A DNA stretch of 54,853 nt from an uncultured Lachnospiraceae bacterium (GTDB taxonomy: Bacteria > Bacillota > Clostridia > Lachnospirales > Lachnospiraceae). Location: NCBI GenBank assembly GCA_902789175.1, contig CADANF010000030.1, positions 1-54,853 of the forward strand, written 5' to 3'. The translations under genes were made by a program, and so were the position numbers. Below, piece after piece: positions 32,700 to 47,873 of the stretch. Each line of letters opens with the position of its first letter. Position 1 is the stretch's first letter. The notes beneath the pieces were generated by a model, which saw nothing but the letters and a program-made list of their open reading frames with translations, was not told the origin of the DNA and ran no database searches.

Positions 32700-32719
32700 A
32701 GTGTTAATTGCGGAGGATT

Positions 32720-35668
32720 ATGTTAAAAAGACCATTGGCACTATTTCTCTTCCTCTTTGTTTTAGGGGAGATAATAGTTAGGTTACTAATAAGTAATATA
32801 CTATGGATAATACCTGTCACGTTAACGGCAGGTTTGATAATCAGAAGAGGCAGAAAATATATGACCGGAGAAATCCGTGTCATATATTTCCTGCTTTTTT
32901 TTGGCTTGCTTTTAGGAATAGGCCACGGAGTATTGTATTCCTGCCTTAGGTATAGGGAAGTAAGCTGCTTTAAAAGAATGGGAGATACGGAGGTTGTATG
33001 TTCTGGCGAAATAATAAGTTTAAAGGAAGGGGATGGGTATAAGAGTTATGTGATAAAAACAAAAGAAGGAAAGGTGATCTTTTATTTAAAAGATGACGAT
33101 GCGTATATTAGCAGCGAGGGATGTTCAAATGGCGAGGATTGTTATATAAATGGCGAGGGAAAAGATGGCTCTAAAGTTTATAAGATACTGCCAGGGGACC
33201 AAATAACTTTAATGGGACAGTTGGAGGAGATAAAGAAAGCATCTAATCCGGGAGGTTTTGACAGAAATTCCTATTATAAGTCAAAAGGTATTGATTTTTT
33301 GATCAAGGGAAAAGTTATTGAAATTAAAAGAAGAAACAGTTTAAGAAAAATTCTGTATGGGATAAAAATGGATATGAAAGAAGCGCTGTACTTAATTTTA
33401 CCTAAAAAGAAGGCGGGGCTTTTATCTTCTATGTTGCTGGGAGATAAAGAAGATATTGATAGAGAAGAATATATCATTTATCAGATGAATGGTATGGCCC
33501 ATATGCTGGCAATTTCTGGACTTCATGTGAGTCTTGTTGCGGAAGCCTTTTTCTTTTTTTTCATGCTTTTATGCAGGAGGAGGAGAGCTGCAGCGGGATT
33601 GACTATCATTTTTATTATTTTATATGGTTCGATAACGGGATTTGCAGAAGCAACAAGTCGCGCTGTGATCATGATGACAGTTATAATGGGTGGAAGGTTT
33701 TTTTCTTCTGTGGCTGATTCGGTTACTAGCTTATTTCTTGCTCTTTTTATAAATATCATCATTAATCCATATGCTATATATTCCCCGGGATTTATTATGA
33801 GTTATCTTGCGGTAGCAGGGGTTCTTGTCAGCCAGGTTTTTTACAAACTGATCTTTAATAATGAAAGATTTCTTATGGTTCCTCTTAGACTTAGAAAATA
33901 TATAAAATATCTGATAAAGGCAGGCTTGATGGGTATTATTTTAAATGCTGTCATGCTTCCTGTTATGTTAAACAATTATTATGGTATTCCTGTTTTTTCA
34001 CTTTTGATAAATATGCTTCTTGTGCCGCTTTTAAGCATTGCCCTTGTTTCGGGTTTTACTGGAGTTGGGATATATCTGTTGATCATCAGGTTGATAAGTG
34101 TGTTAGGGGGAGGAGCTAATGTAATAAGTGTATTAGGAGCAAATGCAGGAAGTGTGTCAGGAGCAGGAGCAAATGCAGGATGTGTATTAGAAGCAGGAGC
34201 AAATGCAGGATGGCTGAGATTTATTTGTTCTATAATAGTTCTTCCTGCCAAGTGGGTGCTTAATATCTACGAAGCAGTTGGAAGATTTATAATAAAGCTT
34301 CCAGGTTCTTATATAACCACAGGTCATATCGGGACAGCAGGAGTTGTTATCATATGTGTTATCTTTTTTATCATAACAGTGTTTATTTATCATGCACTTA
34401 AGCATCATACATTTTATCATCATTCACTTAGGAAACAGGTGTTTCGTCATCATTTACTTTGGAATCAAGTGTTTCATCATCATTTACTTTGGAAAAACGT
34501 GTTTCATCATCATTCACTTTGGAAAAACGTGTTTCGTCAGCAGGTATTTCGACATCGCAGACATAAGCATAGATCAGAAAAAATAGGAAATGATAAAAGA
34601 AGAGAATATGTGATAACTTTATCCATTTATATCCTTATGATGATCATTTCCGTAGGAACAGTAAAAATTATAAATCAATGTCGGGAATGTGTTTTATTTC
34701 TTGATGTTGGTCAGGGAGACTGCTGTATCGTCCATACAAGAAGCAGTGGCAATTATATATTTGATGCAGGATCTTCTTCGGTTAAGGATGTAGGTTACAG
34801 GACACTTATCCCGGCATTGAAATATTATGGGATTGATAAGATAGATGTGATCTTTGTGTCCCATACAGATGAGGATCATATAAATGGGATAATCGAATTT
34901 ATCAATCTTTCAGATATAGAAAAAATAAAAATTAAGAATATCGCTTTTGCTAAAGGAACTGCAGAAGATAAAAATATGAAGGCAGTTCTCTCGTGGCTGG
35001 ATACAAAAGAATCTAAAGAAGATCATAGTACTAAGATTATATATCTTAATGCAGGGGATGTGATCAGTAAGGGAGAGCTGAGTATAAATATCCTGTATCC
35101 TTTTAAAGATAAGAAATCTATTGAAGATGAAAAAATAATGAAAACAGGTGAATATGGTAGAAATATGGTGAAAAAGGATAAATATGAAAAACATGATCAA
35201 AGACAGCTTTTTAATGGCTTGGTTGAAAACAGCGGTAATGACTATTCTTTGGTGGCAGAGCTTAGATATAAAAAACTGGAAGCTATTTTTACAGGTGACA
35301 TCAGCTCCGATGTTGAAGAAAAAATTGTAAAACAGTCTTTTGGAAAAAAAGAAGAATCATATGTGGAAGATAGAAAGGGAAAAGAAGATTTTGATGTGAA
35401 AGATAAAAAGGGAAAAGAAGATTTTGATGTGAAAGATAGAAAGGGAAAAGAAGATGTTCTCAGAATTTTAAAAGTACCTCATCATGGTTCAAAATATTCT
35501 TCCTCGGAAGCTTTTCTTAAAAGTGTGGACTGCGACATAGCGATAATATCTGTAGGTGAGAATAACCTTTATGGTCACCCTCATAAGGAAACTCTAGAGA
35601 GGCTGGAGGAGGCAGGCTGTAAGGTTTATAGAACGGATAAAGATGGGGCGATAATTATAGAAGAGTAA
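32720..35668 (+). CDS. comEC: ComEC/Rec2-family DNA uptake channel protein with beta-lactamase-like domain
   Basis: 982 residues: N-terminal helices and OB-type external domain (about 30-190), the competence domain with SMLLGDKEDID and MAHMLAISGLHVSLV (about 235-275) and multiple helices, then a C-terminal metallo-beta-lactamase fold (LFLDVGQGDCC near 665, VSHTDEDHING near 715, VPHHGSKYSS near 920). It should translocate single-stranded DNA. Three in-frame tandem repeats make it longer than most relatives: an ANAG-rich stretch, a His/Trp-rich loop and an acidic/lysine repeat inside the beta-lactamase domain. ATG 32720 is chosen because CGGAGG (32711-32716) precedes it; the upstream TTG 32708 would enclose that site. 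Confidence 0.9.
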   Translation: MLKRPLALFLFLFVLGEIIVRLLISNILWIIPVTLTAGLIIRRGRKYMTGEIRVIYFLLFFGLLLGIGHGVLYSCLRYREVSCFKRMGDTEVVCSGEIISLKEGDGYKSYVIKTKEGKVIFYLKDDDAYISSEGCSNGEDCYINGEGKDGSKVYKILPGDQITLMGQLEEIKKASNPGGFDRNSYYKSKGIDFLIKGKVIEIKRRNSLRKILYGIKMDMKEALYLILPKKKAGLLSSMLLGDKEDIDREEYIIYQMNGMAHMLAISGLHVSLVAEAFFFFFMLLCRRRRAAAGLTIIFIILYGSITGFAEATSRAVIMMTVIMGGRFFSSVADSVTSLFLALFINIIINPYAIYSPGFIMSYLAVAGVLVSQVFYKLIFNNERFLMVPLRLRKYIKYLIKAGLMGIILNAVMLPVMLNNYYGIPVFSLLINMLLVPLLSIALVSGFTGVGIYLLIIRLISVLGGGANVISVLGANAGSVSGAGANAGCVLEAGANAGWLRFICSIIVLPAKWVLNIYEAVGRFIIKLPGSYITTGHIGTAGVVIICVIFFIITVFIYHALKHHTFYHHSLRKQVFRHHLLWNQVFHHHLLWKNVFHHHSLWKNVFRQQVFRHRRHKHRSEKIGNDKRREYVITLSIYILMMIISVGTVKIINQCRECVLFLDVGQGDCCIVHTRSSGNYIFDAGSSSVKDVGYRTLIPALKYYGIDKIDVIFVSHTDEDHINGIIEFINLSDIEKIKIKNIAFAKGTAEDKNMKAVLSWLDTKESKEDHSTKIIYLNAGDVISKGELSINILYPFKDKKSIEDEKIMKTGEYGRNMVKKDKYEKHDQRQLFNGLVENSGNDYSLVAELRYKKLEAIFTGDISSDVEEKIVKQSFGKKEESYVEDRKGKEDFDVKDKKGKEDFDVKDRKGKEDVLRILKVPHHGSKYSSSEAFLKSVDCDIAIISVGENNLYGHPHKETLERLEEAGCKVYRTDKDGAIIIEE
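34110..34210 (+). repeat. In-frame GAxANAG-encoding repeats in comEC
   Basis: GGAGCAAATGCAGGA recurs with variable spacing of about 30-36 nt and encodes GANAGS/C/W units in what should be a loop between membrane helices. Confidence 0.8.
34409..34528 (+). repeat. Four tandem 30-bp units in comEC encoding a His/Trp-rich loop
   Basis: Units start at 34409 (degenerate), 34439, 34469 and 34499 and encode VFHHHLLWKN-type decapeptides. The next partial unit runs into VFRQQVFRHRRHKHR. The unit length keeps the reading frame. Confidence 0.9.
35371..35456 (+). repeat. Tandem 33-bp repeat inside the comEC beta-lactamase domain
   Basis: About two and a half units encoding D(R/K)KGKEDFDVK, immediately before the LKVPHHGSKYSS motif. 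The insertion is in frame. Confidence 0.85.
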
Positions 35669-35713: not shown

Positions 35714-36212
35714 ATGTGGAGCTTGAGTGAGGCGAATGGCTATAAAAAGACAGGAAAATAAGGAGATTATAGCCGTTGACGTTTGGATGTGGAGCTTGAG
35801 TGAGGCGAATGGCTATAAAACGACTGGAAAATAAGGAAATTATAGCCGCAGCCGCCGAGATACTGATTTTGAGAGCTGCGATTGGCTATAAAAAGACAGG
35901 AAAATAAGGAAATTATAGCCGTTGACGTTTGGATGTGGAGCTTGAGTGAGGTGATTGGCTATAAAACGACTGGAAAATAAGGAAATTATAGCCGTTGACG
36001 TTTGGATGTAATGCTTTAGGGAGGTGATTGGCTATAAAACGATAAGAAAATGTGGAAATTATAGCCGCAGCCACCGAGATGCTGATTTTGAGAGCTGCGA
36101 ATGGCTATAAAACGACTGGAAAATAAGGAAATTATAGCCGCAGCCGCCGAGATACTGATTTTGAGAGCTGCGATTGGCTATAAAACGATAAGAAAATATG
36201 GAAATTATAGCC
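35714..36212. repeat. 73-bp periodic array: seven 37-bp inverted-repeat units with 36-bp spacers
   Basis: Repeat units start at 35738, 35811, 35884, 35957, 36030, 36103 and 36176, each exactly 73 bp apart. Every 37-bp unit begins GGCTATAA and ends TTATAGCC, a perfect 8-bp inverted repeat around a 21-nt loop that varies in three subtypes. The six 36-bp spacers fall into two families: A (starts GTTGACGTTTGGATGT; spacers 1, 3, 4) and B (starts GCAGCC, ends GCTGCGA(T/A)T; spacers 2, 5, 6). Spacers 2 and 6 are identical, as are repeats 2, 4 and 6. A partial A spacer precedes the first unit. Because 73 is not a multiple of 3, it is not a protein repeat. This fills the comEC to nuclease-like gene interval. 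Confidence 0.92.
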
Positions 36213-36310: not shown

Positions 36311-37123
36311 ATGAACAATCATGAAATGGTAAAAGAGATTAATGTGTTAGAGAACAGTATTAAACAAGTGTTATGTGAATTGGAAAAGCTAAAAAATACA
36401 GCGCCGCAAAAGGTTAAACTTCGCGCAGTAAAGCATGGAAATGTGTACCAGTATTTCATACGTAGAGAAAAATCTGACACCAATGGTGAATACATATCAA
36501 AAAAAGAACTATCAAAAGCTTTTACGCTAGCTCAGATAGAGTATGATGAAAGGCTTTTAGCATTGTTGAAGGATGCAAAGAATACATTAGAGAAATATAT
36601 AGCATCAGAAATAAGCAATCCTTATGAGACTGCACTTAAAGAGATGTCGCTAGGTAAAAGAGAGCTGATTCAATCACATTATATATCGGATGGAGATTAT
36701 ACTAAAAAATGGATAGAACAGAAATATATAGGATTGCCATTCAAAGAAGATTATCCTGAGTATTATACAAGACAAGGACTTAGGGTTCGTTCAAAATCTG
36801 AAGTGATAATAGCTGATATCCTAGAGGAAAAGGGTATTCCTTTTTTATATGAGAAACCTCTGCGGTTGAAGAAAAGAATAGTTCATCCTGACTTTACGCT
36901 GTTGAATATCAAAGAAAGAAAAGAAGTGTTTTGGGAACATTTTGGGATGATGGATGACAGGGAATATAGGGATGAAGCTTTGCTAAAAATAAGGGAATAT
37001 GAGGCAAACGGGTTTTACCAATATGATTCTGTGATCTGGACTTTTGAAAGTACAAAACATCCTGTGAATACAAGGGAAATCCGGAATATGGTCAGGGTAT
37101 TACGTGAGGCTCTGGGATATTAA
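36311..37123 (+). CDS. PD-(D/E)XK-like protein of unknown function
   Basis: 270 residues from this start. The N-terminal half is helical (VLENSIKQVLCELEKLK) with a central YQYFIRREKSDTNGEYISKKEL region. The C-terminal half looks like a PD-(D/E)XK nuclease fold: 'VRSKSEVIIADILEEKGIPF', then PL-RL-KKRIVHPDFTLL with the PD, and VFWEHFGMMDDREY with an E-x-H in place of the usual E-x-K. I recall many similar proteins of unknown role in Lachnospiraceae. ATG 36311 follows AAAAGGGG at a 12-nt gap. The frame stays open back to ATG 36101, inside the repeat array, adding 70 residues partly encoded by repeats 6 and 7, so the true start is uncertain. Confidence 0.6.
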   Translation: MNNHEMVKEINVLENSIKQVLCELEKLKNTAPQKVKLRAVKHGNVYQYFIRREKSDTNGEYISKKELSKAFTLAQIEYDERLLALLKDAKNTLEKYIASEISNPYETALKEMSLGKRELIQSHYISDGDYTKKWIEQKYIGLPFKEDYPEYYTRQGLRVRSKSEVIIADILEEKGIPFLYEKPLRLKKRIVHPDFTLLNIKERKEVFWEHFGMMDDREYRDEALLKIREYEANGFYQYDSVIWTFESTKHPVNTREIRNMVRVLREALGY

Positions 37124-40371: not shown

Positions 40372-40532
40372 AATGTAAGAATGTCACATGCCACAATGTA
40401 AGAATGTCACATGCTACAATGTAAAAATGTCACATGCCACAATGTAAAAATGTCACATGCCACAATGTAAAAATGTCACATGCTACAATGTAAGGATGTC
40501 ACATGCTACAATGTAAGAATGTCACATATCAC
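40372..40532. repeat. Seven tandem 23-bp repeats between holA and glgB
   Basis: Units start at 40372, 40395, 40418, 40441, 40464, 40487 and 40510. Each contains AATGTAAnAATGTCACATG followed by C(C/T)AC. The core ATGTCACAT is a perfect 9-bp palindrome about the C. Variation is limited to four or five positions. The array lies just upstream of the holA start on one side and about 170 bp before glgB on the other, so it could be a regulatory protein array or a slippage-generated minisatellite. Confidence 0.92.
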
Positions 40533-45802: not shown

Positions 45803-45837
45803 CCAATATAAAGATTTATAATCTAAATGCCATGAAG

Positions 45838-46118
45838 AGGAATAGTAGAGATAGGGATTCCAAAGAGAGAGCTGTCGGTTGCTGCGAGACAGTGGAGGAA
45901 ATATTTTCGAACTCGCCTCGGAGCAGCCGGGTGAATTATTGATCATTATATAGTAGCCTTAGGACGGAACCCAACCGTTATATCTGGGAGGATATAAAAT
46001 GCATCAGGGCATTCGTATCTGATAATGAGGTATCTTCAAGTATTTTGAGGATATGAAGCAGAGTGGTACCGCGTATTATTCGCCTCTGCAACAGCGTGCT
46101 GTTGCAGAGGCTTTTTTT
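45838..46118 (+). ncRNA. T-box leader (tRNA-Leu-responsive) controlling leuA
   Basis: The antiterminator contains the T-box consensus as GAGTGGTACCGCG (46061-46073). Stem I shows AGAGAG and a GAACTCGCC specifier region, in which CUC (45912-45914) is a leucine codon in agreement with the leuA gene it precedes. The terminator is a perfect 14-bp stem, GCCTCTGCAACAGC (46082-46095) / GCTGTTGCAGAGGC (46098-46111), followed by seven T residues. Uncharged tRNA-Leu should favour the antiterminator and let leuA be transcribed. Confidence 0.93.
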
Positions 46119-46202: not shown

Positions 46203-47873
46203 ATGAAGAATTACGATCATTACAAAAGAGGCTATTTTATGCCACCAGTTAATTGTACTGAATGGGTTAATAAAGAGTATATAGATCATGCGCCTGCATG
46301 GTGCTCGGTTGACTTAAGAGATGGCAACCAGGCTCTTGTAACACCAATGAATCTTGAACAAAAGATCGAATTCTACAAAGAACTTATTAAGATCGGTTTT
46401 AAAGAGATTGAAATTGGTTTCCCTGCTGCCAGTGATACAGAATATGAATTCTGCCGTAGACTTATAGAAGATAATTTAATACCTGATGATGTTACAATAC
46501 AGGTTCTTACTCAGGCAAGAGAACATATTATAAAGAAGACTTTTGAAGCTGTACAGGGAGCAGATCCAAAGAATGTTATCGTTCATGTTTATAACTCAAC
46601 TTCTCTTGCACAGCGTGAGCAGGTATTTAAAAAATCTAAGGAAGAAGTGAAGCGTATTGCTATAGATGGTGCTGCACTTTTAAAAAAGCTGGCCGATGAA
46701 GCTGGGGCTCCATATAGATTCGAATATTCTCCTGAAAGCTTTACAGGTACTGAAGTTGATTATGCTCTTGAGGTTTGTAATGCAGTTCTTGATGTATGGC
46801 AGCCAACTGGTGATAGAAAAGCAATTATCAATCTTCCTGCAACAGTGGAAATGTCACTTCCTCATGTTTATGCAAGTCAGATTGAATATATGAATAAAAA
46901 CTTAAAGTATAGAGAAAATGTTGTCCTTTCTCTTCACCCACATAATGACAGAGGATGTGGTGTGGCAGATGCGGAGCTTGGACTTCTTGCAGGAGCTGAC
47001 AGGATTGAAGGAACACTTTTTGGAAATGGTGAGAGAACAGGAAATGTAGATATTATCACTATTGCCATGAACATGTTTACACATGGTGTTGATCCAGAAC
47101 TTGATTTTTCAGATATGCCTCGTATTCAGGAAGTATATGAAAAATTTACAGAGATGGTAGTTCCTCCAAGACAGCCATATTGTGGAAAACTGGTATTTGC
47201 AGCTTTTTCCGGATCTCATCAGGATGCTATTGCCAAAGGCATGAAATGTAGAGAAGATGATTCTGATCAGATGTGGACAGTTCCATATCTTCCTCTTAAT
47301 CCAGAAGATATCGGACGTACTTATGATGGAGATGTAATAAGGATCAACAGTCAGTCAGGTAAGGGTGGAATCGGATTTATACTTGAGACTAAATATGGTA
47401 TGGAACTTCCTAAGAAGATGAAGGAAGATGTTGGATACTATATTAAAGGTGTATCAGACAGAGAACATAAGGAACTTAAACCAGAAGAAGTTTACAAGAT
47501 GTTCGTTCAGGAATATGTTAATCTTAAAGCGCCTATTGAATTTAAGGCCTGCAGCTTTATTCAGGAAAAGGGAGGCATAACTTGCGAGATCTCAATTCAA
47601 AGAGATGGAGTTGCAAAGGTTTATCATGGACATGGTAATGGACGTCTTGATGCTGTAAGCAATGCAATCATGAGACATTTTAAGATACAGTTTTCACTGG
47701 TTACTTATGAAGAGCATGCTCTTAACAGAGGCTCTGATTCCAAGGCTTGTGCTTATGTGGGTATTCAGACAGAGGAAGAAGAAAAGTTCTTCTGGGGATG
47801 CGGAATTGAGGATGATATTGTAATTGCTTCTGTACAAGCTTTAATAAGTGCAGTTGATAAAGCGATGAATTAG
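46203..47873 (+). CDS. leuA: 2-isopropylmalate synthase
   Basis: 556 residues, the long type of LeuA. The barrel opens with AWCSVDLRDGNQALVTPM (catalytic Arg and metal Asp) and contains FGNGERTGNVD and HPHNDRGCGVA (metal histidines). The C-terminal regulatory domain, about 430-556, is the site of leucine feedback (ITCEISIQRDGVAKVYHGHGNG region). It condenses acetyl-CoA and 2-oxoisovalerate in the first step of leucine synthesis. Expression is controlled by the T-box just upstream. ATG 46203 follows GGAGGAAAAAGCAA. A terminator follows, so it is monocistronic. Confidence 0.95.
   Translation: MKNYDHYKRGYFMPPVNCTEWVNKEYIDHAPAWCSVDLRDGNQALVTPMNLEQKIEFYKELIKIGFKEIEIGFPAASDTEYEFCRRLIEDNLIPDDVTIQVLTQAREHIIKKTFEAVQGADPKNVIVHVYNSTSLAQREQVFKKSKEEVKRIAIDGAALLKKLADEAGAPYRFEYSPESFTGTEVDYALEVCNAVLDVWQPTGDRKAIINLPATVEMSLPHVYASQIEYMNKNLKYRENVVLSLHPHNDRGCGVADAELGLLAGADRIEGTLFGNGERTGNVDIITIAMNMFTHGVDPELDFSDMPRIQEVYEKFTEMVVPPRQPYCGKLVFAAFSGSHQDAIAKGMKCREDDSDQMWTVPYLPLNPEDIGRTYDGDVIRINSQSGKGGIGFILETKYGMELPKKMKEDVGYYIKGVSDREHKELKPEEVYKMFVQEYVNLKAPIEFKACSFIQEKGGITCEISIQRDGVAKVYHGHGNGRLDAVSNAIMRHFKIQFSLVTYEEHALNRGSDSKACAYVGIQTEEEEKFFWGCGIEDDIVIASVQALISAVDKAMN

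Follow-up and report, generated by a model that had tools for sequence, protein, structure and literature searches.

A palindromic array spaced in helical turns and the adjacent nuclease-like gene P2: a candidate two-part DNA element in Lachnospiraceae

The array between comEC and P2

The window, that is, the whole stretch of 54,853 nucleotides under analysis, derives from an uncultured Lachnospiraceae bacterium and carries a tandem array of palindromic sites between comEC and a gene here called P2 (Table 1). The repeat unit is GGCTATAA-21-TTATAGCC, with exact 8-bp inverted ends in 7/7 repeats, and the spacers are 36 bp long in 6/6 cases. A first-pass annotation had described seven 37-bp repeats at this constant spacing, and they were confirmed by pattern search and by TRF (period 73, 6.8 copies, score 517); a reversed-pattern control gave 0 matches across the window genome. 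The two spacer families reported there were also recovered: spacers 1, 3 and 4 make up family A, spacers 2, 5 and 6 make up family B, and spacers 2 and 6 are identical.

Table 1. Features of the array locus (window coordinates).
Feature	Coordinates	Strand	Basis or remark
comEC (PF03772 Competence)	32708..35668	+	Neighbours array and P2 on the upstream side in several congeneric species
Partial family-A spacer running into first repeat	35714..35737	.	Sequence inspection
Array of seven palindromic 37-bp sites in tandem; period 73 bp, 7 helical turns	35738..36212	.	Pattern search and TRF
Palindromic site 1	35738..35774	.	
Palindromic site 2	35811..35847	.	
Palindromic site 3	35884..35920	.	
Palindromic site 4	35957..35993	.	
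Palindromic site 5	36030..36066	.	
Palindromic site 6	36103..36139	.	
Palindromic site 7	36176..36212	.	
P2, partner gene, 270 aa from ATG at 36311	36311..37123	+	PD-(D/E)XK-like nuclease module at the C-terminus; families searched gave no match over the full length

The array has the look of a CRISPR locus. This identity was rejected, in agreement with the annotation, because the spacers repeat and cas genes were not found in the scanned ORFs: neither Pfam (8 window ORFs) nor PADLOC (10 window ORFs) detected a Cas family. STAR-like false CRISPRs, as described in PMC5294841, likewise combine a repeat-spacer look with absence of spacer diversity and of cas genes, and carry a GC-rich direct signature. 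The window array shares that look, but its word is inverted, its spacing is quantised in helical turns and it is accompanied by a partner gene; on inspection, the STAR signature T[GAT]TGTTG[GT]GGCCC[CA] is absent from its repeats.

The open frame of P2 reaches upstream to 36101, inside the array. A coding role, suggested previously in the form of an enlarged 5' region of the gene that follows, was nonetheless discarded because successive units shift the frame by one base and the arrays of relatives use other words. Exchange of mosaic units, another early proposal, agrees with the presence of seven units in the window and five at the same locus in the sister species G065. A second, homologous 73-bp array with five units and homologous spacers is present in the window genome (G000:C26:30806-31134).

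Within the genus, comEC is probably context only. Arrays in the comEC-P2 gap have periods of 72-74 bp, and their words differ between genomes: GGCTATAA in G065, GGCTAAGA/TCATAGCC in G073 and G030, and GGTAACA in G023 and G020, with three degenerate units seen by eye in G024 (the sequence upstream of L138 was left out of this comparison). The gap is short and without array in G064, G001 and G007 (85, 63 and 125 bp), and holds other sequence in G033; in G007 and G033, a 74-bp array lies 132 and 55 bp from P2, respectively.

Arrays with the same geometry are found well beyond this locus. The tandem pattern GCTATAA-N20..23-TTATAGC-N36..40-GCTATAA matched 71 stretches of named genomes, mostly Lachnospiraceae (RM5, P6A3, XBB2008, RGIG10136 and others) together with Treponema from horse faeces; single matches in other taxa, Lactococcus, Thermotogaceae and Pacearchaeota among them, may be due to chance. 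In viral contigs the tandem pattern had 0 matches and P2 had none that could be confirmed, and a phage origin was set aside. When up to 3 arm mismatches were allowed, 259 units were collected, with loops of 21 bp in 206, 20 bp in 33, 22 bp in 19 and 19 bp in 1; spacer length was 36 bp in 166/184 cases. Loops, spacers or arm words are often unrelated between such arrays. Even adjacent units can have unrelated loops and spacers, as in array L067 of P6A3, where arms and exact spacing are kept. Unit spacings of 72, 74 and 83 bp were seen in Treponema L035 and L032, equivalent to one extra helical turn inside an array.

P2 and its linkage to arrays

No full-length match for P2 was obtained in Pfam (15 proteins), in NCBIfam or PHROGs (4 proteins each), or among PDB sequences up to E=1; PHROGs yielded two weak partial matches (E 0.014 and 0.057). 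The C-terminus, however, appears to be a PD-(D/E)XK-like nuclease module. Residues E164, P193-D194, E205, E209 and H210 are invariant in 15 homologs, one of them from Treponema, and compose the acidic motif E...PD...E(x)K/H of such enzymes, in agreement with PADLOC matches of PDDEXK type. The module matches the end of the PADLOC candidate defence family PDC-S68 (E 1e-27) and of proteins in other families, and the likeness to PDC-S68 is confined to it: models of that family are around 1200 aa long, compared with around 270 aa in P2, and the N-terminal half of P2 is unmatched. One homolog (L080) hit the PADLOC 'CAS-associated' PD_DExK model at E=0.015 only. In a 398-genome sample of the phylum, matches outside the family of P2 cover its C-terminal part only, with one extending back to profile position 97. 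Judged by a dN/dS of 0.21 between the window and G065, P2 is under purifying selection, a value derived from 9 synonymous and 8 other changes. A published description of the array-P2 pair was not found in the open-access PMC literature, and the undescribed P2 family points to what may be a DNA-binding or self-spreading bacterial element of a new kind.

Two side observations concern the family. A 1229-aa open frame (G000:C15:6807-7202) carries the same nuclease module as P2, and in-frame stops interrupt several of the P2 paralogs, suggesting family turnover and decay.

Homologs of P2 were detected within 1 kb of arrays at four loci of other records: L049 (RGIG507), L072 (XBB2008), L080 (P6A3) and Treponema L035, the latter with 33-34% identity. 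A profile built from 15 sequences matched 9/11 array genomes (G095, one of those counted, is the same genome as G024) compared with 92/298 genomes of the family, ten of the 298 with at least 340 bits; the two array genomes without match, G089 and G090, are both MAGs. Within the genus, P2 was present in 4/4 genomes with GGCTATAA arrays and in 21/61 overall, a count that includes some weak or partial matches (p=0.011).

The association was also examined from the side of the gene. A tandem array of 5, 6 or 7 turns was detected within 1.5 kb of P2 at 44/77 loci, and at 20/26 in the clade scoring at least 340 bits, compared with 11/828 control genes (Fisher 3e-43); a palindrome was not demanded on either side of this comparison. 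Five of 82 P2 loci had been dropped (L248, from the same genome as L137, and the fragments L273-L276), and the controls left out the P6A3 stretches and, of 90 stretches, L166, L177 and L237, which have a known array or P2. The 33/77 P2 loci where TRF reported no such array include at least two, L137 and Treponema L035, with degenerate arrays recognisable by eye that TRF misses; the genome stretches are samples, and many P2 loci have at most 1.5 kb of flank. The TRF rows near P2 lie upstream in 42/56 cases and downstream in 14/56, at a median distance of 112 bp for all 56, with overlapping rows of one array counted apart.

As a prediction test, 20 P2 regions in 18 genomes were chosen by profile score, mostly one per genome, before their arrays were inspected. 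A 5-, 6- or 7-turn array was present within 1.5 kb in 16/20 regions, with periods of 53, 62, 64 and 73-75 bp. In these regions, the 55.6 kb around P2 contained 19 arrays and the remaining 284 kb contained none.

Spacing in helical turns and the DNA of the arrays

The periods of 61 arrays near P2, a set that still includes the fragment loci L273 and L274, were (in bp, with the number of arrays in brackets if above one): 42 (4), 46, 51, 52 (2), 53 (9), 54 (2), 56, 62 (4), 63 (4), 64 (5), 72, 73 (15), 74 (10), 75 and 90. They cluster at 52-54, 62-64 and 72-75 bp, with R=0.835 at 10.5 bp. When one array was kept per 60%-identity P2 cluster and period bin, the remaining 42 gave R=0.79 (p~4e-12), and an unconstrained scan of periods between 6 and 20 bp on this collapsed set peaked at 10.35 bp, or at 10.30-10.55 bp under stricter filters. 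No such phase was found among other tandem periods of the sampled stretches, 73-bp rows left out (R=0.10).

Period class follows the P2 tree: 8 changes were counted, compared with a shuffled mean of 17.8, and 0/200 shuffles were as low. Near-copies add to this signal, and the 5-turn label of L139 (51 bp, more than 1 kb away), which is probably spurious, was kept in this test and in the linkage count. Whole-turn spacing in three pitch classes, together with a pitch that follows the protein, would be most simply explained by a P2-containing complex occupying the same face of the helix at successive sites.

A/T content oscillates along the arrays. In 29 array clusters whose similarity outside the arms was below 55%, the oscillation had a period of 10.25-10.5 bp and a power of 0.57, while the highest of 1000 shuffles reached 0.05 at those periods and 0.10 at any period tried. 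The same A/T phase was seen in twelve arrays whose arm words differ (r=0.83; 0/5000 random shifts as high), four of which come from P6A3 and may share ancestry with the GGCTATAA arrays of that genome. Clear phasing was detected in 18/26 of the 7-turn arrays and in 3/12 of both the 5-turn and the 6-turn arrays; hence, phasing as a universal feature was rejected, and it holds for the 7-turn class only.

Tandem repeats in bacteria are readily written off as minisatellites or false CRISPRs. A neutral minisatellite lying beside a gene, with its period fixed by descent, would account for the varying copy number and the mosaic units. It scarcely deserves credit, however, because arrays with unrelated sequences or different arm words agree in period and phase, because the linkage to P2 extends across genera, and because the period clusters lie one helical turn apart. 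The annotation had pictured this outcome as a repeat limited to one strain, untranscribed and lacking a conserved partner gene; arrays of the same geometry occur in many Lachnospiraceae and in Treponema, and P2 is the conserved partner gene.

Changes in the arms were examined in the 259 units. Position 2 was altered on one side in 33 units and position 4 in 26, with 0 matched changes at either; at position 1, changes were one-sided in 94 units and matched in 36 (28 expected). Matched double changes were found at positions 5 and 6 in 11 and 4 units, and base pairing would fit these too. Base pairing of mirrored loop positions did not exceed that of between-loop controls. The mostly uncompensated arm changes and the phasing of A/T every ~10.4 bp make the array look like double-stranded DNA read by a protein, as proposed initially for inverted repeats aligned on one helix face. 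An RNA hairpin array is disfavoured by loop pairing at or below control level and by the uncompensated changes, even if some single units form long perfect hairpins. Alternative hairpins as the purpose of the design are thus no longer favoured. Altogether, the first-pass reading holds for the non-CRISPR nature, the helix phasing and the mosaicism, and fails for the hairpins and the 5' extension; P2, immediately downstream, had been overlooked.

Tandem repeats directly upstream of a nuclease-like gene bring to mind ToxIN and, in general, type III toxin-antitoxin modules, in which the array RNA would be the antitoxin of a nuclease toxin. Rfam had no match at the arrays of the window and nine loci, neither for a ToxI-type RNA nor otherwise, and 15 P2 proteins gave no toxin match, of ToxN type or other, in Pfam up to E=1; the constraints are of DNA type: periods are quantised in DNA turns and arm changes are uncompensated. 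Many trans arrays, moreover, are without gene. We consider such a module very improbable.

Inverted repeats in array consensuses were longer than in shuffles (p<=0.05) in 32/50 arrays: 7/12 in the 5-turn class, 7/12 in the 6-turn class and 18/26 in the 7-turn class. The consensus was not palindromic beyond shuffles in the other 18/50, L250 and L281 among them despite clearly palindromic single units. A recurrent 6-bp pair between units has an outer span of ~36 bp in the 5- and 7-turn classes and an ambiguous one, 37 to 45 bp, in the 6-turn class.

Copies in trans and a possible mechanism

Cognate copies of the arrays occur in trans in G000, G005 and RM5, and exact units number tens each in RM5, P6A3 and G005, mostly in trans. 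AGCAACA, the word of G005, was first found through its 73-bp period. Whole-genome counts of its exact form were 48 in G005, 29 in G077, 4 in G084 and 1 forward plus 9 reverse in G071, all P2-positive, with 1-2 in G064, G001 and G007; the count was 0 in the P2-less genomes G002, G009 and G061 and in G000, G023, G065 and G024, which use other words. All carriers among the 14 genomes tested are P2-positive.

RM5 has five P2 paralogs, with nearby array periods of 73, 54, 63, 52 and 64 bp; the 63-bp cis array has only 2.2 copies, and the 63-, 54- and (by consensus) 73-bp cis arrays are not palindromic beyond shuffles. Trans arrays of this genome match the arrays of three paralogs: GGCTATAA at 72-73 bp, GTAACGT (span 37) at 64 bp, and one 53-bp array that shares 67.5% identity with the 54-bp cis array over 428 bp. 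This last array gave the only match when eight RM5 trans arrays were compared with the cis arrays by blastn; the others agree in word and period only, or not at all.

The mostly upstream position of the arrays suggests autoregulation, and P2 arrays might be autoregulatory operators only, with the trans copies as functionless recombination debris. We regard this explanation as unlikely. RM5, P6A3 and G005 hold most of their exact units in trans, and the units of L067 keep arms and spacing around unrelated loops; trans arrays therefore also appear to be under selection.

Arrays are enriched in gaps between convergent genes (12/44 vs 16/158 gaps) and do not significantly avoid divergent gaps (4/44 vs 24/158), a weak orientation signal; two arrays that overlap ORFs of 100 aa or longer had been excluded. 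The enrichment, together with A/T phased every 10.4 bp over seven turns, would fit a general DNA-wrapping protein (gyrase, HU or an Lrp-like octamer) that binds the arrays, with P2 as a passenger nuclease exploiting or maintaining them. Related cases are the E. coli BIME-2 elements, intergenic mosaic palindromes associated with DNA gyrase, and intrinsically curved DNA with phased A-tracts, which has ~10.5-bp A/T phasing. The arrays resemble them in mosaic palindromes and phasing and differ in their lineage-private words and linked nuclease-like family. Against a wrapping protein are the restriction of AGCAACA to P2-positive genomes (14 tested), the period that follows the P2 tree, the weak phasing of 5- and 6-turn arrays and the lack of significant avoidance of divergent gaps; several pitch classes per genome also argue against a single general protein. 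We judge it improbable.

Our preferred reading, to which we assign a probability of about 0.6, is that array and P2 constitute one two-part DNA element, self-dispersing, in which P2 or a complex containing it would bind sites on one helix face. Many P2 paralogs would own a private site of ~36-37 bp, palindromic in most arrays, set in tandem beside the gene (mostly upstream) and copied in trans in some genomes. Spacing by 5, 6 or 7 whole turns, largely according to P2 clade, would align the sites along one side of the duplex. They would most likely be bound by P2 dimers, or by a P2-containing complex, assembling cooperatively along that face, and in the 7-turn family phased A/T-rich stretches may let the DNA bend around the complex. 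The upstream array would probably double as the operator of P2, and the nuclease module probably cuts, permitting arrays to expand, contract and spread; nuclease-assisted expansion and spread are suggested by the unit difference between sister species and by the trans copies.

The closest parallel is REP/RAYT, described in PMC2817692, where a gene devoted to DNA processing is accompanied in cis by palindromes of its own, which are extragenic, recur in trans and differ in word between lineages. P2 loci are alike in their cis arrays (44/77) and cognate trans copies. They differ in several respects: P2 has no match to HUH/Y1 tyrosine transposases, nor to any transposase (15 proteins, Pfam up to E=1); its arrays are tandem with whole-turn spacing, and a hairpin constraint is not supported; no GT(A/G)G head adjoins the window palindromes, GTGG occurring inside family-A spacers; and the genomes counted have tens of exact units each. 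By analogy, the best reading is that the P2 pair would work like REP/RAYT with an unrelated protein.

A bolder and more tentative extension is that the arrays are orthogonal, self-addressed DNA lattices. Each P2 paralog would read its own word at its own pitch (5, 6 or 7 turns), several per cell, and the nuclease would write new arrays, so that word and pitch evolve with the protein in a selfish or domesticated genome-organising element. The spacing, expressed as a number of helical turns, seems to be inherited and to follow a protein family. Should P2 both read and write arrays, this would be a nuclease-plus-address system, analogous to REP/RAYT with unrelated chemistry; orthogonal DNA-lattice proteins could then be drawn from nature, and co-evolution of a protein with its DNA sites could be put to the test, including five paralogs in one genome (RM5).

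Several minor observations were made. RM5 holds an orphan class, a 74-bp array with the word TCCATCT and without known cis P2 partner (L042:1628-1818). In G005, inspection by eye puts the pyrimidine-rich strand of the trans arrays on + between 0.50 and 1.55 Mb and on - between 1.745 and 2.11 Mb; sampled stretches show a flip in GC skew at ~0.18 Mb, which would locate the terminus there and the strand switch nearer the replication origin. Replichore polarity was set aside, as the switch may follow gene orientation or strand skew. In the window, tandem repeats are also found inside comEC (34111-34539, 24/30/60 bp; 35347-35455, 33 bp) and at 40372-40527 (23 bp, 6.8 copies), and a T-box leader (Rfam RF00230) lies at 45823-46090, ahead of an open frame at 46203.
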